Shown piece after piece: positions 1-5,100 of a DNA stretch of 5,100 nucleotides. Source of the stretch: Caldilineaceae bacterium (GTDB lineage: Bacteria; Chloroflexota; Anaerolineae; Caldilineales; Caldilineaceae); NCBI GenBank assembly GCA_012032975.1, contig JAAUPU010000317.1:1-5100 (forward strand). The letters run 5' to 3'. The notes under the pieces are model-generated. The model was not told the origin of the DNA and ran no database searches. It saw only the letters and a list, made by a program, of their open reading frames with translations. Position numbers and translations under genes: made by a program. How positions within the stretch are numbered: the stretch's first letter is position 1; every line of letters starts with the position of its first letter.

Positions 1-2
1 TC

Positions 3-794
3 GAATATGTTCACGCGATGCGCGTGGCGGTGCGGCGGATGCGCAGCGCAGGCCTGCTTTTTGGCGGCTTTTTTCAGCGGTCCGCGGTGCGCACCTATCT
101 GAAGGAGCTGAGGAAGCTCACCCGTCAACTCGGCGCCGTGCGCGACCTGGATGTGCTGGAGCGGCACCGGGCCAGTTTCGTGCATCACCAGGGGCAGTTT
201 ATGGGTGGCAAAGGGCTGGCCCGGCAGTGGCGGAACTCCCGCAAGGGCCACCATGCCGCCCTGCTGACTTGGCTGGACAGCGAAGAATACAGCCAGTTCG
301 TCGCCTCGTTTGCCGACTTCTGCCAATCGCCTGGCGTCGGGACGGCGCCAAATGAGAAGGCGGGCGCTCTCCTGGAGCCGACCCAGGTCCGCCATGTTTT
401 GCCCGGCATGATCGTCGCCCGCTTCGAGCGGGTGCGCGCATACGAAGCGCTATTCGATACGGGAGCGGACGTGAGCATCGATCACCTGCATGGATTGCGG
501 ATCGAGTGCAAGCATCTGCGCTATCTGTTGGAGTTTTTCCGTCATCTTCTCGGCGAAGAAGGCGCGCTGTTGATCGCCCAACTCAAGAAGCTTCAGGACC
601 ACCTGGGTGACCTGAATGACGCTGCCGTGCGTCAAGAACGGGTTACGCTGGCCAGCGGCAAAGTGGCCAAAGCGTTCAAATCTGAACCGGACGCGACCGT
701 TGACCGCCTGCGGCAGACCTTCCCAGAGGTCTTTCGCACCTTCGTCGGGGTGGAAAACCGAGAAGCATTGGCGCGCGCGATGGCTCGTCTGTAG
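3..794 (+). CDS. CHAD-domain protein, 5' end cut by window edge
   Basis: CHAD domains are all-helical, rich in conserved histidines and basic residues, and are known to bind inorganic polyphosphate and to localise to polyphosphate granules. The visible reading frame is open from base 3 and opens with VHAMRVAVRRMR, the typical first CHAD helix (VHxxRVxxRRxR). The second, related helix, LHGLRIECKHLRYLLEFF, lies at about 486-539, followed by LKKLQDHLGDLNDA near 582-623, another typical CHAD segment. The first ATG at base 18 falls inside the first conserved helix, after its key histidine at 12-14, so the true start must lie upstream of the window. About 263 residues are visible, close to a whole CHAD domain. 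An N-terminal partner such as a CYTH domain could lie outside and cannot be judged. The gene converges on the pst-phoU operon, which fits a role in phosphate storage. The domain call is secure; the precise cellular role is inferred from the family. Confidence 0.9.
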   Translation, partial: EYVHAMRVAVRRMRSAGLLFGGFFQRSAVRTYLKELRKLTRQLGAVRDLDVLERHRASFVHHQGQFMGGKGLARQWRNSRKGHHAALLTWLDSEEYSQFVASFADFCQSPGVGTAPNEKAGALLEPTQVRHVLPGMIVARFERVRAYEALFDTGADVSIDHLHGLRIECKHLRYLLEFFRHLLGEEGALLIAQLKKLQDHLGDLNDAAVRQERVTLASGKVAKAFKSEPDATVDRLRQTFPEVFRTFVGVENREALARAMARL

Positions 795-818
795 GCAGAT
801 CCCTGCGATTCGATGACC

Positions 819-861
819 CTTAACATTGATCTTAAAGACTCGTTAACGGTGGTCATATACC
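819..861 (+). promoter_or_regulatory. Pho-box-like triple direct repeat with a -10 element
   Basis: Three related hexamers stand in direct repeat on the plus strand: CTTAAC (819-824), CTTAAA (831-836) and GTTAAC (842-847), with start-to-start steps of 12 and 11 bp. This resembles the TTAACA-type PhoP boxes of Firmicutes and the CTTAACCT repeats of cyanobacterial Pho boxes, both built on an 11-bp step. A TATACC at 856-861 could be the -10. The best -35 at 18-bp spacing, TTAAAG, is poor and lies inside the repeats, as expected of an activator-dependent promoter. No protein gene follows, so the transcript would be non-coding. The repeat pattern is seen directly; PhoB/PhoP binding is inferred from the pattern and from the pst genes nearby. 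Confidence 0.5.
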
Positions 862-865
862 GTAG

Positions 866-990
866 AAGACGAGGAATAAACCTGTCTGGGAAGCAAAGTA
901 GTACACCTCTATTCCTCAGTTCCTCTGTGTCCTTCTTCAGGACCTCGAAACGGGTTCGTGCGCAACCGCATGAACCCGTTTCACTTTTCC
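866..990 (+). ncRNA. Candidate Pho-controlled small RNA
   Basis: A transcript starting just after the TATACC at 856-861 and ending at the hairpin at 947-982 would be about 125 nt. It contains no ATG before base 970, so it is unlikely to encode a peptide. It can fold: GAGGAATA (871-878) pairs perfectly with TATTCCTC (910-917), and AGAAG (864-868) can pair with CTTCT (932-936) outside it. Between the two hairpins lies a pyrimidine-rich stretch (905-936) with repeated TTCCTC/TCCTT motifs, complementary to GGAG-type ribosome-binding sites. It matches no RNA family I recognise. The call rests on promoter, structure and terminator in the right order; expression is not shown. The alternative is a simple terminator for the CHAD gene plus chance repeats. 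Confidence 0.4.
947..990 (+). terminator. Strong intrinsic-terminator-like hairpin
   Basis: GAAACGGGTTCGTGCG (947-962) and CGCATGAACCCGTTTC (967-982) form a 16-bp stem with one G-U pair and a CAAC tetraloop. ACTTTTCCC follows, giving a short T run on the plus strand. The opposite strand has no T run after the stem, so plus-strand termination is favoured. It would end either read-through from the CHAD gene, whose stop is 152 bp upstream, or a separate small RNA begun at about 866. The T run is only four bases, so some doubt remains. Confidence 0.7.
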
Positions 991-1020
991 CGATAGATTG
1001 GCCCATCGCAAAAGATGGCC

Positions 1021-1100
1021 CGCGAAGGGGCACAAAGCTTCACGAAGTCTCACGAAGACGGCGATTCCATCTTGGTGTTTCTTGGTGACGCTTCGCCGAT
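1021..1100. repeat. Decamer-periodic inverted repeat element
   Basis: The left arm is four consecutive 10-mers: CGCGAAGGGG, CACAAAGCTT, CACGAAGTCT and CACGAAGACG (1021-1060). After a 10-base centre come three 10-mers of the opposite sense: CTTGGTGTTT, CTTGGTGACG and CTTCGCCGAT (1071-1100). The core CACRAAG is thus repeated at a 10-bp step and mirrored as CTTGGTG, with GCGAAG (1022-1027) and CTTCGC (1091-1096) at the outer ends. It resembles the degenerate CTTCGTG/CACGAAG intergenic repeats scattered through some environmental bacterial genomes, which I recall without a formal family name. It has no coding content, and its function is unknown. Confidence 0.6.
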
Positions 1101-1174
1101 AATCTGTTTTGGGAAATCCTGGTCGCGTGCGGAGGGTCGTGCAGAGAAGGATCCTGGGGCAGGGCGTGGTCCCC

Positions 1175-1222
1175 AAAAATGAAACTGGGGCCATCGCTAC
1201 AATCTTCTCATGTAGCTGCCCC
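1175..1222 (-). terminator. Possible distal terminator of the pst-phoU operon
   Basis: Read on the minus strand, GGGGC (1222-1218) and TGTAGC's partner arms form an 11-bp interrupted stem: GCCCC (1218-1222) pairs with GGGGC (1187-1191), and GCTACA (1196-1201) pairs with TGTAGC (1211-1216), with a 9-nt loop. A run of five Ts (1179-1175 on the minus strand) follows seven bases beyond the stem. It lies 174 bp past the phoU stop. The gap between stem and T run is longer than in a classic intrinsic terminator, and an overlapping alternative hairpin exists, so this is only a candidate. Confidence 0.35.
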
Positions 1223-1338
1223 GGCTTCACCTCTGTTTGGCTGCTGTTCTATTGTTGCTCGAGGAAGGCAGGTGGCAATCTTCCCATGCAACCGCCCCAA
1301 TCCAACCAGCATCGAGAGCATACCTGGCGCAGATTTCC

Positions 1339-1390
1339 GTCTCGTTCGCAGGCTGTTATGGGGCGATTAACAGTGCGGATCAGGCGAGAC
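1339..1390 (-). terminator. Long interrupted hairpin directly after phoU
   Basis: Three arm pairs nest around one loop. GTCTCG (1339-1344) pairs with CGAGAC (1385-1390); TTCGCA (1345-1350) pairs with TGCGGA (1374-1379) through one wobble; and CTGTTA (1353-1358) pairs with TAACAG (1368-1373). Bulges are only GG on the left and TCAGG on the right, giving 18 bp in total around a 9-nt loop. It begins 5 bases after the phoU stop codon on the minus strand. No T run follows, so it is either a factor-dependent terminator or a 3'-end hairpin protecting the operon mRNA. The structure is seen in the sequence; its role is inferred. Confidence 0.5.
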
Positions 1391-1395
1391 AAGCT

Positions 1396-2076
1396 TCAGC
1401 CGAAATCGGCCATCGGTTCTGTGACGTCAAATTCGACCAAGGTTCCCGTTGCCATGTAGATGACTCGCTCACAGATGTTGGTTACGCGGTCGCCGGCACG
1501 CTCCAGGTTGTGCGCTGCCCAGGAGAGGTTGTTGACGTGGTCCAAGCGGGTTGGGTTCACCAGGATCACCTGGAGCAGTTCGCGGTTGACAAGATTGTAG
1601 AGACGATCCACCTCGTCATCCTCCTGCGGGATCGCGCGTGCACTTTCCACATCTTCGTGAATAAAGGCGTCCAGGCTGCGGCCCAGCATACTGATCACCT
1701 TGTCGCACATCTGCGGGATATGGACCATCGGAATCAGAAGTGGTTCTGGTCCCAGATAGAGGATGATCCGGCCAATCCCCTTGGCATAGTCGCCAATTCG
1801 CTCCAGTTCGGTGGAGATCTCCAGCACGCCGGCGAGAAAGCGCAGGTCGTGGGCCATCGGCTGCTGGGTGGCGATCAGGGTGAGGCAACGGTCTTCCAGG
1901 TCGTAGCGGCGGGAATTGATCGCCCGATCCTCATCGATCAGCCGGAGGGCCGTATCGCGGTCGCGCTTTTTCAGCGCCTTGACTGAATCGGCCAAGGCAT
2001 GGCTGACCATGCTGCCCATGACAAGCAGTTCGTCCTGAAGGTTGCGCAGGGATTGTGTATAGTGATCACGTGGCAT
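1396..2076 (-). CDS. phoU: Phosphate transport/signalling regulator PhoU
   Basis: PhoU is a cytoplasmic two-repeat helical-bundle protein. It couples the Pst transporter to the PhoR-type sensor kinase, restrains phosphate uptake and dampens the Pho response. The 226-residue product has the usual PhoU length and both repeat signatures: ELERIGDYAKGI at residues 90-101 and NLERAGDRVTNI at 190-201. These carry the E/D-rich metal-binding motifs, and each repeat begins with a helix of the type seen in SLRNLQDELLVMGSMVSHA. The ATG at 2076 is chosen because MPRDHYTQSL is the normal PhoU beginning and an AGGAG lies 10 bases upstream. A longer frame reaching back to 2166 would run inside pstB and has no family support. 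The start is 13 bases after the pstB stop, so the genes are almost certainly co-transcribed and probably translationally coupled. It is the last gene of the operon. Confidence 0.96.
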   Translation of the reverse strand: MPRDHYTQSLRNLQDELLVMGSMVSHALADSVKALKKRDRDTALRLIDEDRAINSRRYDLEDRCLTLIATQQPMAHDLRFLAGVLEISTELERIGDYAKGIGRIILYLGPEPLLIPMVHIPQMCDKVISMLGRSLDAFIHEDVESARAIPQEDDEVDRLYNLVNRELLQVILVNPTRLDHVNNLSWAAHNLERAGDRVTNICERVIYMATGTLVEFDVTEPMADFG

Positions 2077-2096
2077 GAAGTGGATGCTCCTATCCA
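2077..2096 (-). promoter_or_regulatory. phoU ribosome-binding site inside a small hairpin loop
   Basis: On the minus strand TGGATAGGAGCATCCA (2096-2081) forms a perfect 5-bp stem, TGGAT with ATCCA, whose 6-base loop AGGAGC is the Shine-Dalgarno sequence of phoU. The pstB stop codon TAG (2092-2090) overlaps the start of the loop, so a ribosome finishing pstB would sit on and open this hairpin. The spacing from AGGAG to the ATG is 10 bases. The arrangement suggests coupling of phoU translation to pstB; the stem is short, so the effect may be weak. Confidence 0.55.
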
Positions 2097-2914
2097 AAAC
2101 GACCGGTGATGTAGTCTTCTGTGCTCTTGTGCTTCGGATTGGTGAAGATCTGCTTGGTCGCGCCATATTCGGCCAGGTGGCCTGTGCGGTTCTGGTCGAC
2201 CATGAAGAAAGCTGTGTAGTCGGAGACCCTTGCGGCCTGTTGCATGTTGTGGGTCACGATGATGATGGTGTAGTTGACCACGAGTTCCTTCATCAGATCC
2301 TCGACAGCCAGTGTGGCGATGGGGTCGAGCGCAGAACACGGCTCATCCATCAGGATGATCTCTGGCTTGGTCGCGATCGCGCGCGCGATGCACAGCCGCT
2401 GTTGCTGGCCGCCCGAAAGACCGTACGCACTCTGCGATAGCTTGTCCTTGACTTCATCCCAGAGCGCCGCGCCCCGCAGCGAGCTTTCCACCAGCTCATC
2501 CATGTTGCCGCGATAGCCGTTTACCTTTGCTCCCCAGGCGATGTTGTCATAGATCGACTTTGGAAAAGGGTTCGGCTTTTGAAAGACCATCCCAATCCGA
2601 CGCCGCACCTCGACTGGGTCTACGCCGTCAGCATAGATGTTCTGCCCCATAAAGTAGACCTCGCCGGTCACCCGTGCGATGGGGACCAGGTCATTCATGC
2701 GATTGAAGGAGCGCAGCACGGTACTCTTGCCGCAACCGGAAGGACCGATCAGCGCCGTGATCTTGCGCGGGGCGACGCCAAGGTTGATCTCCTTGACCGC
2801 ATGAAACTTGCCATAGTAGACGTGCATGTCGAGCGCCTCGATCACAGATGCGCTGTTTTCTGGGGCGACGGTCACGCCGGCGCTATCGGTAGCCAATCTC
2901 GTCTGAACGCTCAT
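2090..2914 (-). CDS. pstB: Phosphate ABC transporter ATP-binding protein PstB
   Basis: PstB is the ATPase that powers PstSCAB high-affinity phosphate import from the cytoplasmic face. All ABC motifs are intact in the 274-residue product: Walker [10 protein letters not shown] at 57-65, Q-loop glutamine at 112 in VFQKPNPFP, signature LSGGQQQR at 166-173, Walker B IILMDEP at 186-192, D-loop SALD at 194-197 and H-loop histidine at 222. QKPNPFP and [10 protein letters not shown] are characteristic of PstB among ABC ATPases. There is a poorly conserved N-terminal leader of about 23 residues before the nucleotide-binding domain, slightly longer than usual. The ATG at 2914 is preceded by an in-frame TAG six bases upstream, so no earlier start is possible. 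AGGAG lies 14 bases upstream (2929-2933), a rather long spacing. The gap to pstA is 77 bp, and the stop overlaps the phoU ribosome-binding site. Confidence 0.98.
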
Positions 2915-2991
2915 GGTCTATCGGTTAACTCCTATCGAGATGTTGCAGAGTCAGCACGGCTCGGTGAATTGTCATCAATCGCTTCCCACGT

Positions 2992-3855
2992 CTAGGCGCG
3001 CTTGCTAAAGTGGTTGCGCAGATAGATCGCCGTGGCGTTGAGCGCGAAGAGCATGACCAGCAGGACAATGCTTGCCGCGGCTGCAATGTGTTGGAACTCC
3101 GGTTGCGGACGTGTGGTCCACTGATAGATCTGCATGGGGAGCACCGTGAACTTGGAGAAGGGTCCATCGGGGTCCACCGTGATGAAGGTCGAGGCGCCGA
3201 TCACGATCAGCGGCGCGGTCTCGCCGACGGCCCTCGACATGGCCAGGATGGTGCCGGTCAGGATGCCGGGCAGCGCATTGGCAAGGACGTGCGAGCGAAT
3301 CACCTGCCATTTGGTGGCGCCCAACCCGTAGCCTGCCTCGCGCAGCGAACTGGGCACGGCGCGAATGGCTTCCTGTGAATTGATGATCACCAGCGGCAAA
3401 ACCAGCAGGCCAAGCGTCAGGCCGGCCGAGACGATGGTGCGCCCGTTGGCCGTGGTTGGGTCGGATAGGCCCAGCGCCGCGCCACTTGTCATCATCTCCA
3501 GCGCCCGCACGAAGATCGCCAACCCCAAGATGCCGTAGATGATGGAGGGCACACCGGCCAGGTTGTCGATGTTGGTCTGGAGCAAGCGTTGAAAACTTCC
3601 GTGGGTGGCGTATTCTTCGAGATAGATCGCTGCGCCGATCCCTGTGGGCACGGCAAAAAGCACGGTGATTGCGATGACCCACAGCGAGCCGAGAATCGCG
3701 GTTCGTACACCCGCCTGTTCCGGCACGCTCGATTGACTGCCGGTCAGGAACTGTCGATTGATCCAGCTATGAAAGTTCAAGACCGCATCGGGATATTTCT
3801 CCAGCGTTTCGACTTCGATCTCTGTGCGCTGAAAAAGCGATGGCATGAGATCCAA
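2992..3855 (-). CDS. pstA: Phosphate permease PstA, five-helix core (C-terminal part)
   Basis: PstA and PstC form the membrane channel of the Pst importer. This 287-residue frame has five hydrophobic segments, at about 51-76, 97-119, 139-158, 194-221 and 257-279. Its EAA coupling loop lies at about 162-198 and includes EAIRAVPSSLREAGYGLGA, which docks on PstB. RTAILGSLWVIAIT and GAAIYLEEYA are typical PstA. PstA normally has six helices; the missing first one is encoded in the overlapping upstream frame (3777-5075). The sequence just before the start, read one base back, joins smoothly: ...VVASW then DLMPSLFQR. So this is probably the C-terminal half of a single PstA separated by a one-base frameshift near 3852. 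As an independent gene it would start at TTG 3855, or ATG 3846, with GAGGTGG 7 bases before the TTG. Identity is certain; whether it is a separate gene is not. Confidence 0.93.
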   Translation of the reverse strand: MDLMPSLFQRTEIEVETLEKYPDAVLNFHSWINRQFLTGSQSSVPEQAGVRTAILGSLWVIAITVLFAVPTGIGAAIYLEEYATHGSFQRLLQTNIDNLAGVPSIIYGILGLAIFVRALEMMTSGAALGLSDPTTANGRTIVSAGLTLGLLVLPLVIINSQEAIRAVPSSLREAGYGLGATKWQVIRSHVLANALPGILTGTILAMSRAVGETAPLIVIGASTFITVDPDGPFSKFTVLPMQIYQWTTRPQPEFQHIAAAASIVLLVMLFALNATAIYLRNHFSKRA

Positions 3856-5075
3856 CTGGCAACCACCTCAGGCTGAACCACCCGCTCCTGCACCAGGTCG
3901 AAGATCTCACCATGAGCGCGCTCGGCAAGCGGACCTTCGCTCTCGAAGCGGCGCAACACGCCGGCGGAAACATTCGATTCCAGGATACCTTGCAGTGTCG
4001 GCGCTGCCAGGTCGGCCAACGTCACATCGTCAAAAACATGGCTGACAAAAAACTCAAGCGTGCCGCTCTCTATCGAGGGGATGTAGCGGCGAATTGGTTC
4101 GTTTGGCCAGGCAGAGTTGACATCCGACCAGCGTTCTGCGGTCGTGAAGATGGCCTGGAGTTCTTCCCGGCTTGCTTCGTTGAGAAAGGTGTTCTGCTGG
4201 CTGACGACGACCGCGATGGCATCGTTGGCCACCTTGATCTCGGCGGGAACCCGCTTGGCTTTGTTGCAGGCTGCCGATTCTTGACGAGAGATGGCCCGGC
4301 TGGCATCGGCGATGTCCGCGTCTTTGTCTACGCACAAACTGGTAAAGCCCGCGCGCGTGCCTGTGCTTTCAGCCGTAATCGTGCCCACGAAGCCGGCTTC
4401 CACAAACATCTCGATCATGCGCTCGGTGAGTGGGAAGACGGTCGAACTGCCCATGATGGCGATGTCGCCGGTCATGCCGGTGGAGAGCAACGCACCGCCA
4501 GTCAGCGAGCGAACGGCATTCAATTGGCGCTCGATTGTGTCCTGGTCAACAGGAAAGTATCCCACCTCGTCGATCACGCTGTTGACGTTGGAGAGGTAGA
4601 AGTCGGCAAAGGCTGCCACCTCTTGCTTCGCCGCCAACACGGACTCGACCGTGTAGAGATAGAGCGGACGGGAGAGCGGATAATCGCCGGAATCGACCGT
4701 TGCCGCATTGGGTTCAATGTTGTCGACAGTCAGCGCGCGCAGTTCATCGTTTCGATTCTGATAGTAGGCGTAACCGAAGAAACCGACCGCATAAGGATCC
4801 TCGGCGATGGCGTTGGCCAGGGCTGTATCGTCTTCACTGCTGACCGTGTTGGGTGCGGTCACCATCTCTTTGCTGATGCTCAGCGTCACAAGCTGGTCGG
4901 GGTCAATTGCATTCTCGACAGCGATCAGACCAAACGTCTGATTGACGATGTTGAAGATCAGCGCCGCCAGCACAATGATGGCAACGATCAGCGAGAGCTG
5001 GAAGGTCGCCAGCCAGATTTTGCCCCGCCGATGGCGCGACGAGATCTGCTTGAGGAGATCGTCGCCCTCTGGCAT
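3777..5075 (-). CDS. pstA: PstA N-terminal part with inserted PstS-like phosphate-binding domain
   Basis: Residues 1-19 are polar and basic (SSRHRRGK), a cytoplasmic N-terminus. Residues 20-44 are one membrane helix, which would be PstA TM1, leading to the outside. Residues 62-350 resemble a PstS-type phosphate-binding domain with swapped halves. Residues 351-408 (LQGILESNVSAG ... DLVQERVVQPEVVASW) resemble the native PstA loop that precedes the permease core. The last 24 residues after W408 read the permease DNA in the wrong frame and look like junk, ending at a stop inside the next ORF (79-base overlap). A missing base at about 3852 would explain this. The frame stays open from ATG 5075 to the right edge without a stop and no clear Shine-Dalgarno precedes that ATG, so the real start may be upstream. 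It could alternatively be a membrane-anchored binding protein in its own right. Confidence 0.8.
   Translation of the reverse strand: MPEGDDLLKQISSRHRRGKIWLATFQLSLIVAIIVLAALIFNIVNQTFGLIAVENAIDPDQLVTLSISKEMVTAPNTVSSEDDTALANAIAEDPYAVGFFGYAYYQNRNDELRALTVDNIEPNAATVDSGDYPLSRPLYLYTVESVLAAKQEVAAFADFYLSNVNSVIDEVGYFPVDQDTIERQLNAVRSLTGGALLSTGMTGDIAIMGSSTVFPLTERMIEMFVEAGFVGTITAESTGTRAGFTSLCVDKDADIADASRAISRQESAACNKAKRVPAEIKVANDAIAVVVSQQNTFLNEASREELQAIFTTAERWSDVNSAWPNEPIRRYIPSIESGTLEFFVSHVFDDVTLADLAAPTLQGILESNVSAGVLRRFESEGPLAERAHGEIFDLVQERVVQPEVVASWISCHRFFSAQRSKSKRWRNIPMRS
3856..3869 (-). promoter_or_regulatory. Possible internal ribosome-binding site for the PstA core
   Basis: GAGGTGG (3869-3863 on the minus strand) lies inside the codons for PEVV of the upstream frame, 7 bases before the TTG at 3855 that opens the PstA-core frame. 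It matches part of GGAGGTG at a good spacing and could allow re-initiation if the two halves are truly separate genes. GAG GTG GTT are also ordinary codons for EVV, so the match may be chance. Confidence 0.3.
4026..4892 (-). other. Circularly permuted PstS-like domain within the PstA loop
   Basis: Residues are numbered from ATG 5075. The first part, residues 76-176 (4850-4548), looks like the C-terminal half of PstS: SSEDDTALANAI, VGFFGYAYYQN, YPLSRPLYLY and EVGYFPVD. The second part, residues 203-348 (4469-4032), looks like the N-terminal half: GSSTVFPLTE at 209-218, a TGTRAGF loop at 239-244, DIADASRAIS at 254-263, VANDAIAVVVS at 282-292 and ESGTLEFF at 336-343. In ordinary PstS proteins the order is reversed, with the SGT segment leading into SEDD. 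The likely phosphate-binding positions (SST near 210-212, D257, SGT at 337-339) are retained. About 26 residues (177-202) would link the original C- and N-termini. Following TM1, the domain should be outside the membrane. The half-domain matches are recognised from memory of the family. Confidence 0.72.
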
Positions 5076-5100
5076 CCCCGTTTTTTGGCTGGTCGATCGT

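Follow-up and report, generated by a model that had tools for sequence, protein, structure and literature searches.

A circularly permuted PstS-type domain within PstA of a Caldilineaceae phosphate importer, a candidate tethered receptor

The window considered here is a stretch of 5,100 nucleotides from a Caldilineaceae bacterium (Chloroflexota; contig JAAUPU010000317.1, positions 1 to 5,100), and the end of a pst operon, with pstA, pstB and phoU, lies on its minus strand. In importers of this kind PstS binds phosphate outside the membrane and hands it to PstC/PstA, with PstB driving transport. The open reading frame (ORF) 5075-3777, which holds the 5' part of pstA, encodes the first transmembrane segment (TM1), then motifs of the C-terminal half (C-half) of PstS, a linker, and motifs of the N-terminal half (N-half). 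A sequence-only reading of the window had described the first external loop of PstA as the site of a PstS-like domain in circularly permuted form. Profiles, a confident model, a solved structure whose order is the same, 43 distinct homologous inserts and relatives with an empty site all bear this out.

Both halves of the insert match the PstS family. The Pfam profile PF12849 finds the N-half (residues 203-350 on profile positions 10-155) and scores 95.8 bits over two stretches, with a cut-off of 27. The NCBIfam profile TIGR02136 also matches in two stretches, with 193.8 bits (E 3.7e-57); the curated cut-off of 206.6 bits is not reached, so the insert is not filed as an ordinary PstS. On the solved structure 4jwo_A, query residues 131-284 correspond to chain 49-205 and query residues 18-121 to chain 220-330, i.e., the two stretches are swapped. 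These swapped stretches agree with the motif coordinates in placing the C-half ahead of a linker-joined N-half, and PstS is cut in the loop that links the SGT helix to SEDD, where the sequence-only reading had put the new termini. Structure prediction, proposed earlier as a check along with profile searches on the halves, gave a confident model in which the insert adopts a two-lobed, PstS-like periplasmic-binding fold, and the same order is present in a solved structure. In its predicted fold with moved termini the insert is like the naturally permuted ligand-binding proteins 4H1X and TpMglB-2, but it is not a free exported protein: the canonical N-to-C order of a separate PstS is absent, the C-half coming first in one ORF with TM1 of PstA. 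The significance of the identification rests on the profile E-values and on the conserved relatives.

The insertion site is defined by unfused PstA proteins (L023, L032, L049, L059, L061 and L076), which share TM1 and the following loop with the fused ones. Between DPxxL and the loop segment that follows they have about 6 residues, against about 290 in fused PstA; six of seven unfused proteins were clean at the site in this alignment, L039 being unaligned at TM1. The domain had earlier been placed at 4026 to 4892; the domain stands, and its borders, judged by unfused PstA, move to about 4020-4889. Because a basic segment precedes TM1, we infer that the loop bearing the insert lies outside the membrane.

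The insert had been placed between TM1 and the rest of PstA, and its position is correct, but the rest is not part of the 432-aa product. It is encoded in another frame by ORF 3855-2992, which scores above the curated TIGR00974 cut-off of 193.45 bits (Table 1); the window pstA therefore does not run in a single frame, the frame being lost after the W of VVASW at codon 3852-3854. Nine relatives (P0001, P0002, P0003, P0006, P0011, P0014, P0017, P0032 and P0118) read through in one frame, with lengths of 704-711 aa and 52-62% identity. Since these start 11-14 residues ahead of MPEG (5075), the true start of pstA probably lies outside the window, past base 5100. By itself, the window copy could be a pseudogene. 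Programmed frameshifting at 3852 was set aside because nine relatives have a single frame and L027 breaks at another place. L027:1337-3492 is a second frame-broken fused pstA.

Table 1. Coordinates of the features of the fused pstA, its neighbours and related loci (window positions unless a locus is named)
Feature	Position	Strand	Basis
pstA 5' part	ORF 5075-3777	-	432 aa
PstA TM1 (LATFQLSLIVAIIVLAALIFNIV), basic segment ahead	4944..5012	-	sequence; common to fused and unfused PstA
Left anchor DPDQL of unfused PstA loop	4890..4904	-	alignment with unfused PstA
Entire insert, circularly permuted PstS-type domain, residues 63-352 from ATG 5075	4020..4889	-	profiles, 4jwo_A, model, unfused PstA
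PstS C-half, SSEDD ... GYFPV	4548..4841	-	TIGR02136 second stretch; 4jwo chain 220-330
SSEDD motif	4827-4841	-	sequence
GYFPV motif	4548-4562	-	sequence
Linker, old C terminus to old N terminus of PstS, about 30 residues	4464..4547	-	sequence
PstS N-half, IAIMGSSTVFP ... ESGTLEFFVSHVFDDV	4023..4463	-	PF12849 residues 203-350; 4jwo chain 49-205
GSSTVFP motif	4431-4451	-	sequence
Ligands equivalent to S32, S33, T34 of 9JWY	4440..4448	-	comparison with 9JWY
Ligand equivalent to T61 of 9JWY	4356..4358	-	comparison with 9JWY
Ligand equivalent to S83 of 9JWY	4299..4301	-	comparison with 9JWY
ESGT motif	4059-4070	-	sequence
Ligands equivalent to G174, T175 of 9JWY	4059..4064	-	comparison with 9JWY
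Right anchor LADLAAP	3999-4019	-	alignment with unfused PstA
Remainder of native PstA external loop, LADLAAP to VVASW; frame lost after W	3852..4019	-	alignment with unfused PstA
Rest of PstA membrane domain, other reading frame	2992..3855	-	TIGR00974, 256.7 bits
pstB	2090..2914	-	PF00005, operon place as in relatives
phoU	1396..2166	-	PF01895
PstC with differently permuted PstS insert	L024:10958-13036; L025:10769-12967; L026:10894-12978; L030:1104-3212		
PstA with about one-lobed insert remnant	L065:4416-6128; L078:10845-12461		

The context is that of a pst operon, with pstB and phoU inside the window and pstS and pstC upstream in relatives. Near it, at 3-794 on the plus strand, lies a gene for a CHAD-domain protein (PF05235, 159.5 bits); CHAD proteins have a link to polyphosphate. 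A 396-aa open frame opposite the insert (3912-5099, plus strand) is probably a shadow ORF.

Fused pstA genes were found in 22 of the 26 locus genomes. They were sought with a query of 194 residues consisting of PstA TM1 and the C-half, on which a fused gene gives one match over about 2-180 and a free PstS over about 68-186. In a sample of 396 genomes of the same Chloroflexota class, at least 30 contained the fused span, and the matched part was uninterrupted by stop codons. Of 400 genomes sampled from the phylum, the centre genome (G001) alone showed the span at E <= 1e-30, and a contig search with the window ORF alone returned 41 pattern stretches, none confirmed as a relative. A free PstS, whole or cut by a contig end, lies upstream of pstC in all 22 fused loci; it is seen as an end piece only in L005, L010, L013, L018 and L027, is also cut in L015 and L017, and is a tandem double PstS in L007, L008 and L016. 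The sequence-only reading had offered a self-contained or a two-site importer. An importer without a separate PstS is rejected because of the free PstS at these 22 loci, while a two-site function would fit. L007, L012, L016 and L067 have a further pst operon at the same locus, on the opposite strand and with two pstB genes.

The phosphate ligands of CpPstS (9JWY), as given in the accessible text of its report, are S32, S33, T34, T61, S83, G174 and T175 (PMC12421899). All seven positions are present in the window insert, and the earlier claim that key binding residues are preserved extends to its relatives: the set is complete in 41 of 43 PstA inserts, 11 of the 12 in PstC and all 99 PstS domains of free or tandem proteins, with S or T accepted at T61 and T175. 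The incomplete sets belong to L020 and L100 among the PstA inserts and to L121 among the PstC inserts. Retention of the seven ligands in 41 of 43 inserts suggests selection for phosphate binding in most insert lineages. Of 69 positions conserved in at least 97% of free PstS, 39 are also conserved in at least 90% of the PstA inserts. Both counts use the rows of the tree described below.

PstC of some other Chloroflexota, where a search for the same insert had been proposed earlier, has a second kind of insert. In L024, L025, L026 and L030 a PstS domain occupies the first external loop of PstC, and further PstC inserts are present in L111-L123. Their order is N-half from 23-29 to its end, C-half, and N-half from 1 to about 35 (in L024, N-half 28-154, C-half, N-half 2-35). 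Read from this order, the PstC insert is circularly permuted too, its cut following the first helix of the N-half. It occurs in at least 13 of the 396 class genomes (fused query), and among the matches listed these have zero overlap with the at least 30 genomes that have the PstA insert. A tree of 154 PstS domains arranged in canonical order placed the 43 PstA inserts on one side of a branch with a Shimodaira-Hasegawa-like approximate likelihood ratio test (SH-aLRT) value of 98, and the 12 PstC inserts on one side of another branch, also with SH-aLRT 98. The tree is an unrooted quick search with long branches, e.g., L100. Its PstA inserts came from 33 loci, the window and nine P-numbered proteins, leaving out L027 (frame-broken), L031 (contig end) and the remnants L065 and L078; the PstC set leaves out L119 and L123 (short last piece undetected) and repeats of the same gene. 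The separate branches fit one origin for each kind of insert. In L024 (12937-14826), L025 (12838-14826) and L026 (12879-14927), PstA encoded beside such a PstC in one operon has other long loop inserts, which match neither PstS half; the L024 insert, when scanned, had no Pfam family.

Tandem double PstS genes in the same operons suggest how both kinds of insert arose. The inner stretch of the tandem protein, from the first C-half to the second N-half, has the order of the insert and aligns with the PstA inserts (32 inserts including the window and 10 tandem stretches). The two N-halves of a tandem protein are 88-100% identical in the 13 loci measured (L007, L008, L016, L021-L026, L028, L029, L125 and L129; L028 and L125 appear to be the same gene). 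This suggests that the copies have been homogenised inside the gene, and they are too alike for the insert to be assigned to one of them. The head of mature PstS before the first strand, [VILAM][DN]P, is present in 91 of 95 free PstS and is kept at the insert joint in 20 of 43 PstA inserts (21 hits to the pattern, with P0014 discounted); it is absent at the window joint. Judged from this anatomy, the PstA insert was most likely derived from one repeat period of such a head-to-tail PstS dimer gene copied into pstA, which would yield a permuted insert. The PstC permutant would be a period taken in a different register. Fission followed by refusion is another conceivable route. The wider proposition, that Chloroflexota have at least twice independently copied a PstS-dimer period, in different registers, into PstA and PstC, giving a class of two-receptor phosphate importers whose single pore is served by a permuted, tethered domain together with free PstS, could equally prove right or wrong.

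The reading we favour, and consider somewhat probable, is that the insert is a second, tethered phosphate receptor beside the free PstS. PstA of the window importer carries a full, permuted PstS-type domain in its first extracytoplasmic loop; the linker of about 30 residues joins the old PstS termini, so that the new termini suit a surface loop. The insert, whose putative phosphate binding is supported by ligand conservation, would capture phosphate as a permanently tethered receptor and serve the PstC/PstA pore alongside the free PstS. We infer the phosphate binding and the orientation of the insert, the delivery to the pore and the route of origin. Several observations weigh against this reading. 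The fused copy in the window is itself frame-broken. None of the seven ligand positions survives in L020, and L100 has lost one. The inserts of L065 and L078 begin where the C-half begins and continue into the final 68-69 N-half positions; about one lobe is left, and SGT is also gone. Some inserts, as these sequences read, are therefore no longer phosphate receptors. In addition, 11 of the 69 near-invariant PstS positions drop below 60% in the PstA inserts, so the insert may dock unlike free PstS. Finally, the full-length model of P0001 is weak in its membrane part (mean predicted local distance difference test score 74.6, predicted template modelling score 0.57); it does not place the insert over the pore and shows no docking.

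The shrunken inserts do fit the two-lobed interpretation of the domain. The lobes of 9JWY are given in the accessible text as an N-terminal domain (24-111 and 279-324) and a C-terminal domain (112-278) (PMC12421899). By these borders, in alignments read by hand, L065 and L078 lack the first lobe and about 15 residues, and the lobe that is absent is the one made contiguous by permutation.

Among other explanations, the insert might be a phosphate sensor or gate that informs the transporter, or Pho signalling, of external phosphate and leaves delivery to the free PstS. The presence of free PstS in 22 of 22 fused loci and of phoU next to pstB agrees with this, as does a ligand site retained while other near-invariant positions drifted. 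Sensing and delivery look alike in the present data, but for a domain on the permease itself delivery would be the simplest use, and we regard a sensor as rather unlikely. A structural or docking module that does not need phosphate, e.g., a platform for the free PstS, would account for the ligand losses in L020 and L100 and for the one-lobed L065 and L078; it is less likely again, as the great majority of inserts, including that of the window, keep all seven ligands. The frame breaks of the window (near 3852) and of L027 (elsewhere) could point to an assembly join or a decaying gene. For the architecture as such this explanation was rejected and is very improbable, given nine intact one-frame ORFs and at least 30 of 396 genomes with the fused span.

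A transporter that bears its own receptor would allow one to find out which of two steps, capture or docking, sets the limit on phosphate uptake. The tandem PstS gene, the permuted insert, the ligand-dead insert and the one-lobe remnant also form a natural series for how circular permutants arise.

Permuted PstS or other permuted binding proteins, and receptor-permease fusions, are already known separately. Literature searches aimed at their combination, a permuted receptor set into a loop of the permease and present in both PstA and PstC in different registers, did not find it; most subscription journals lay outside these searches. One close likeness is the PstC insert. It, too, is a permuted PstS domain in a Pst permease and occupies the first external loop, but it belongs to the other subunit, has another cut and forms a separate group in the tree. 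The tandem double PstS of Chloroflexota (e.g., P0009, L007, L016) has the inner order of the insert, but is itself a free double-domain protein. In importers of the GlnPQ kind the receptor domain is attached at a terminus, whereas the present insert has PstA sequence on both sides, TM1 before it and the remainder after it. PstS2 of Streptococcus pneumoniae (SP_2084, PDB 4H1X) is naturally permuted, but is a free solute-binding protein outside any permease, and its cut differs from that of the window insert, with the SGT segment near the start of the chain. TpMglB-2 of Treponema pallidum has been described, in the accessible text of its report, as a natural circular permutant of an ATP-binding cassette (ABC) ligand-binding protein, with ligand binding retained (PMC4990184); as described there, it is of the glucose-binding class and is a free lipoprotein with no permease part. 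In GlnPQ, according to the accessible text, more than one substrate-binding domain is covalently linked to the transmembrane part of an ABC importer (PMC8025302). In the same way, the substrate-binding domain is covalently part of the permease in the intact relatives of the frame-broken window copy, but, as far as the accessible account of GlnPQ allows comparison, the window domain differs in being permuted, inserted in a loop and accompanied by a separate PstS.
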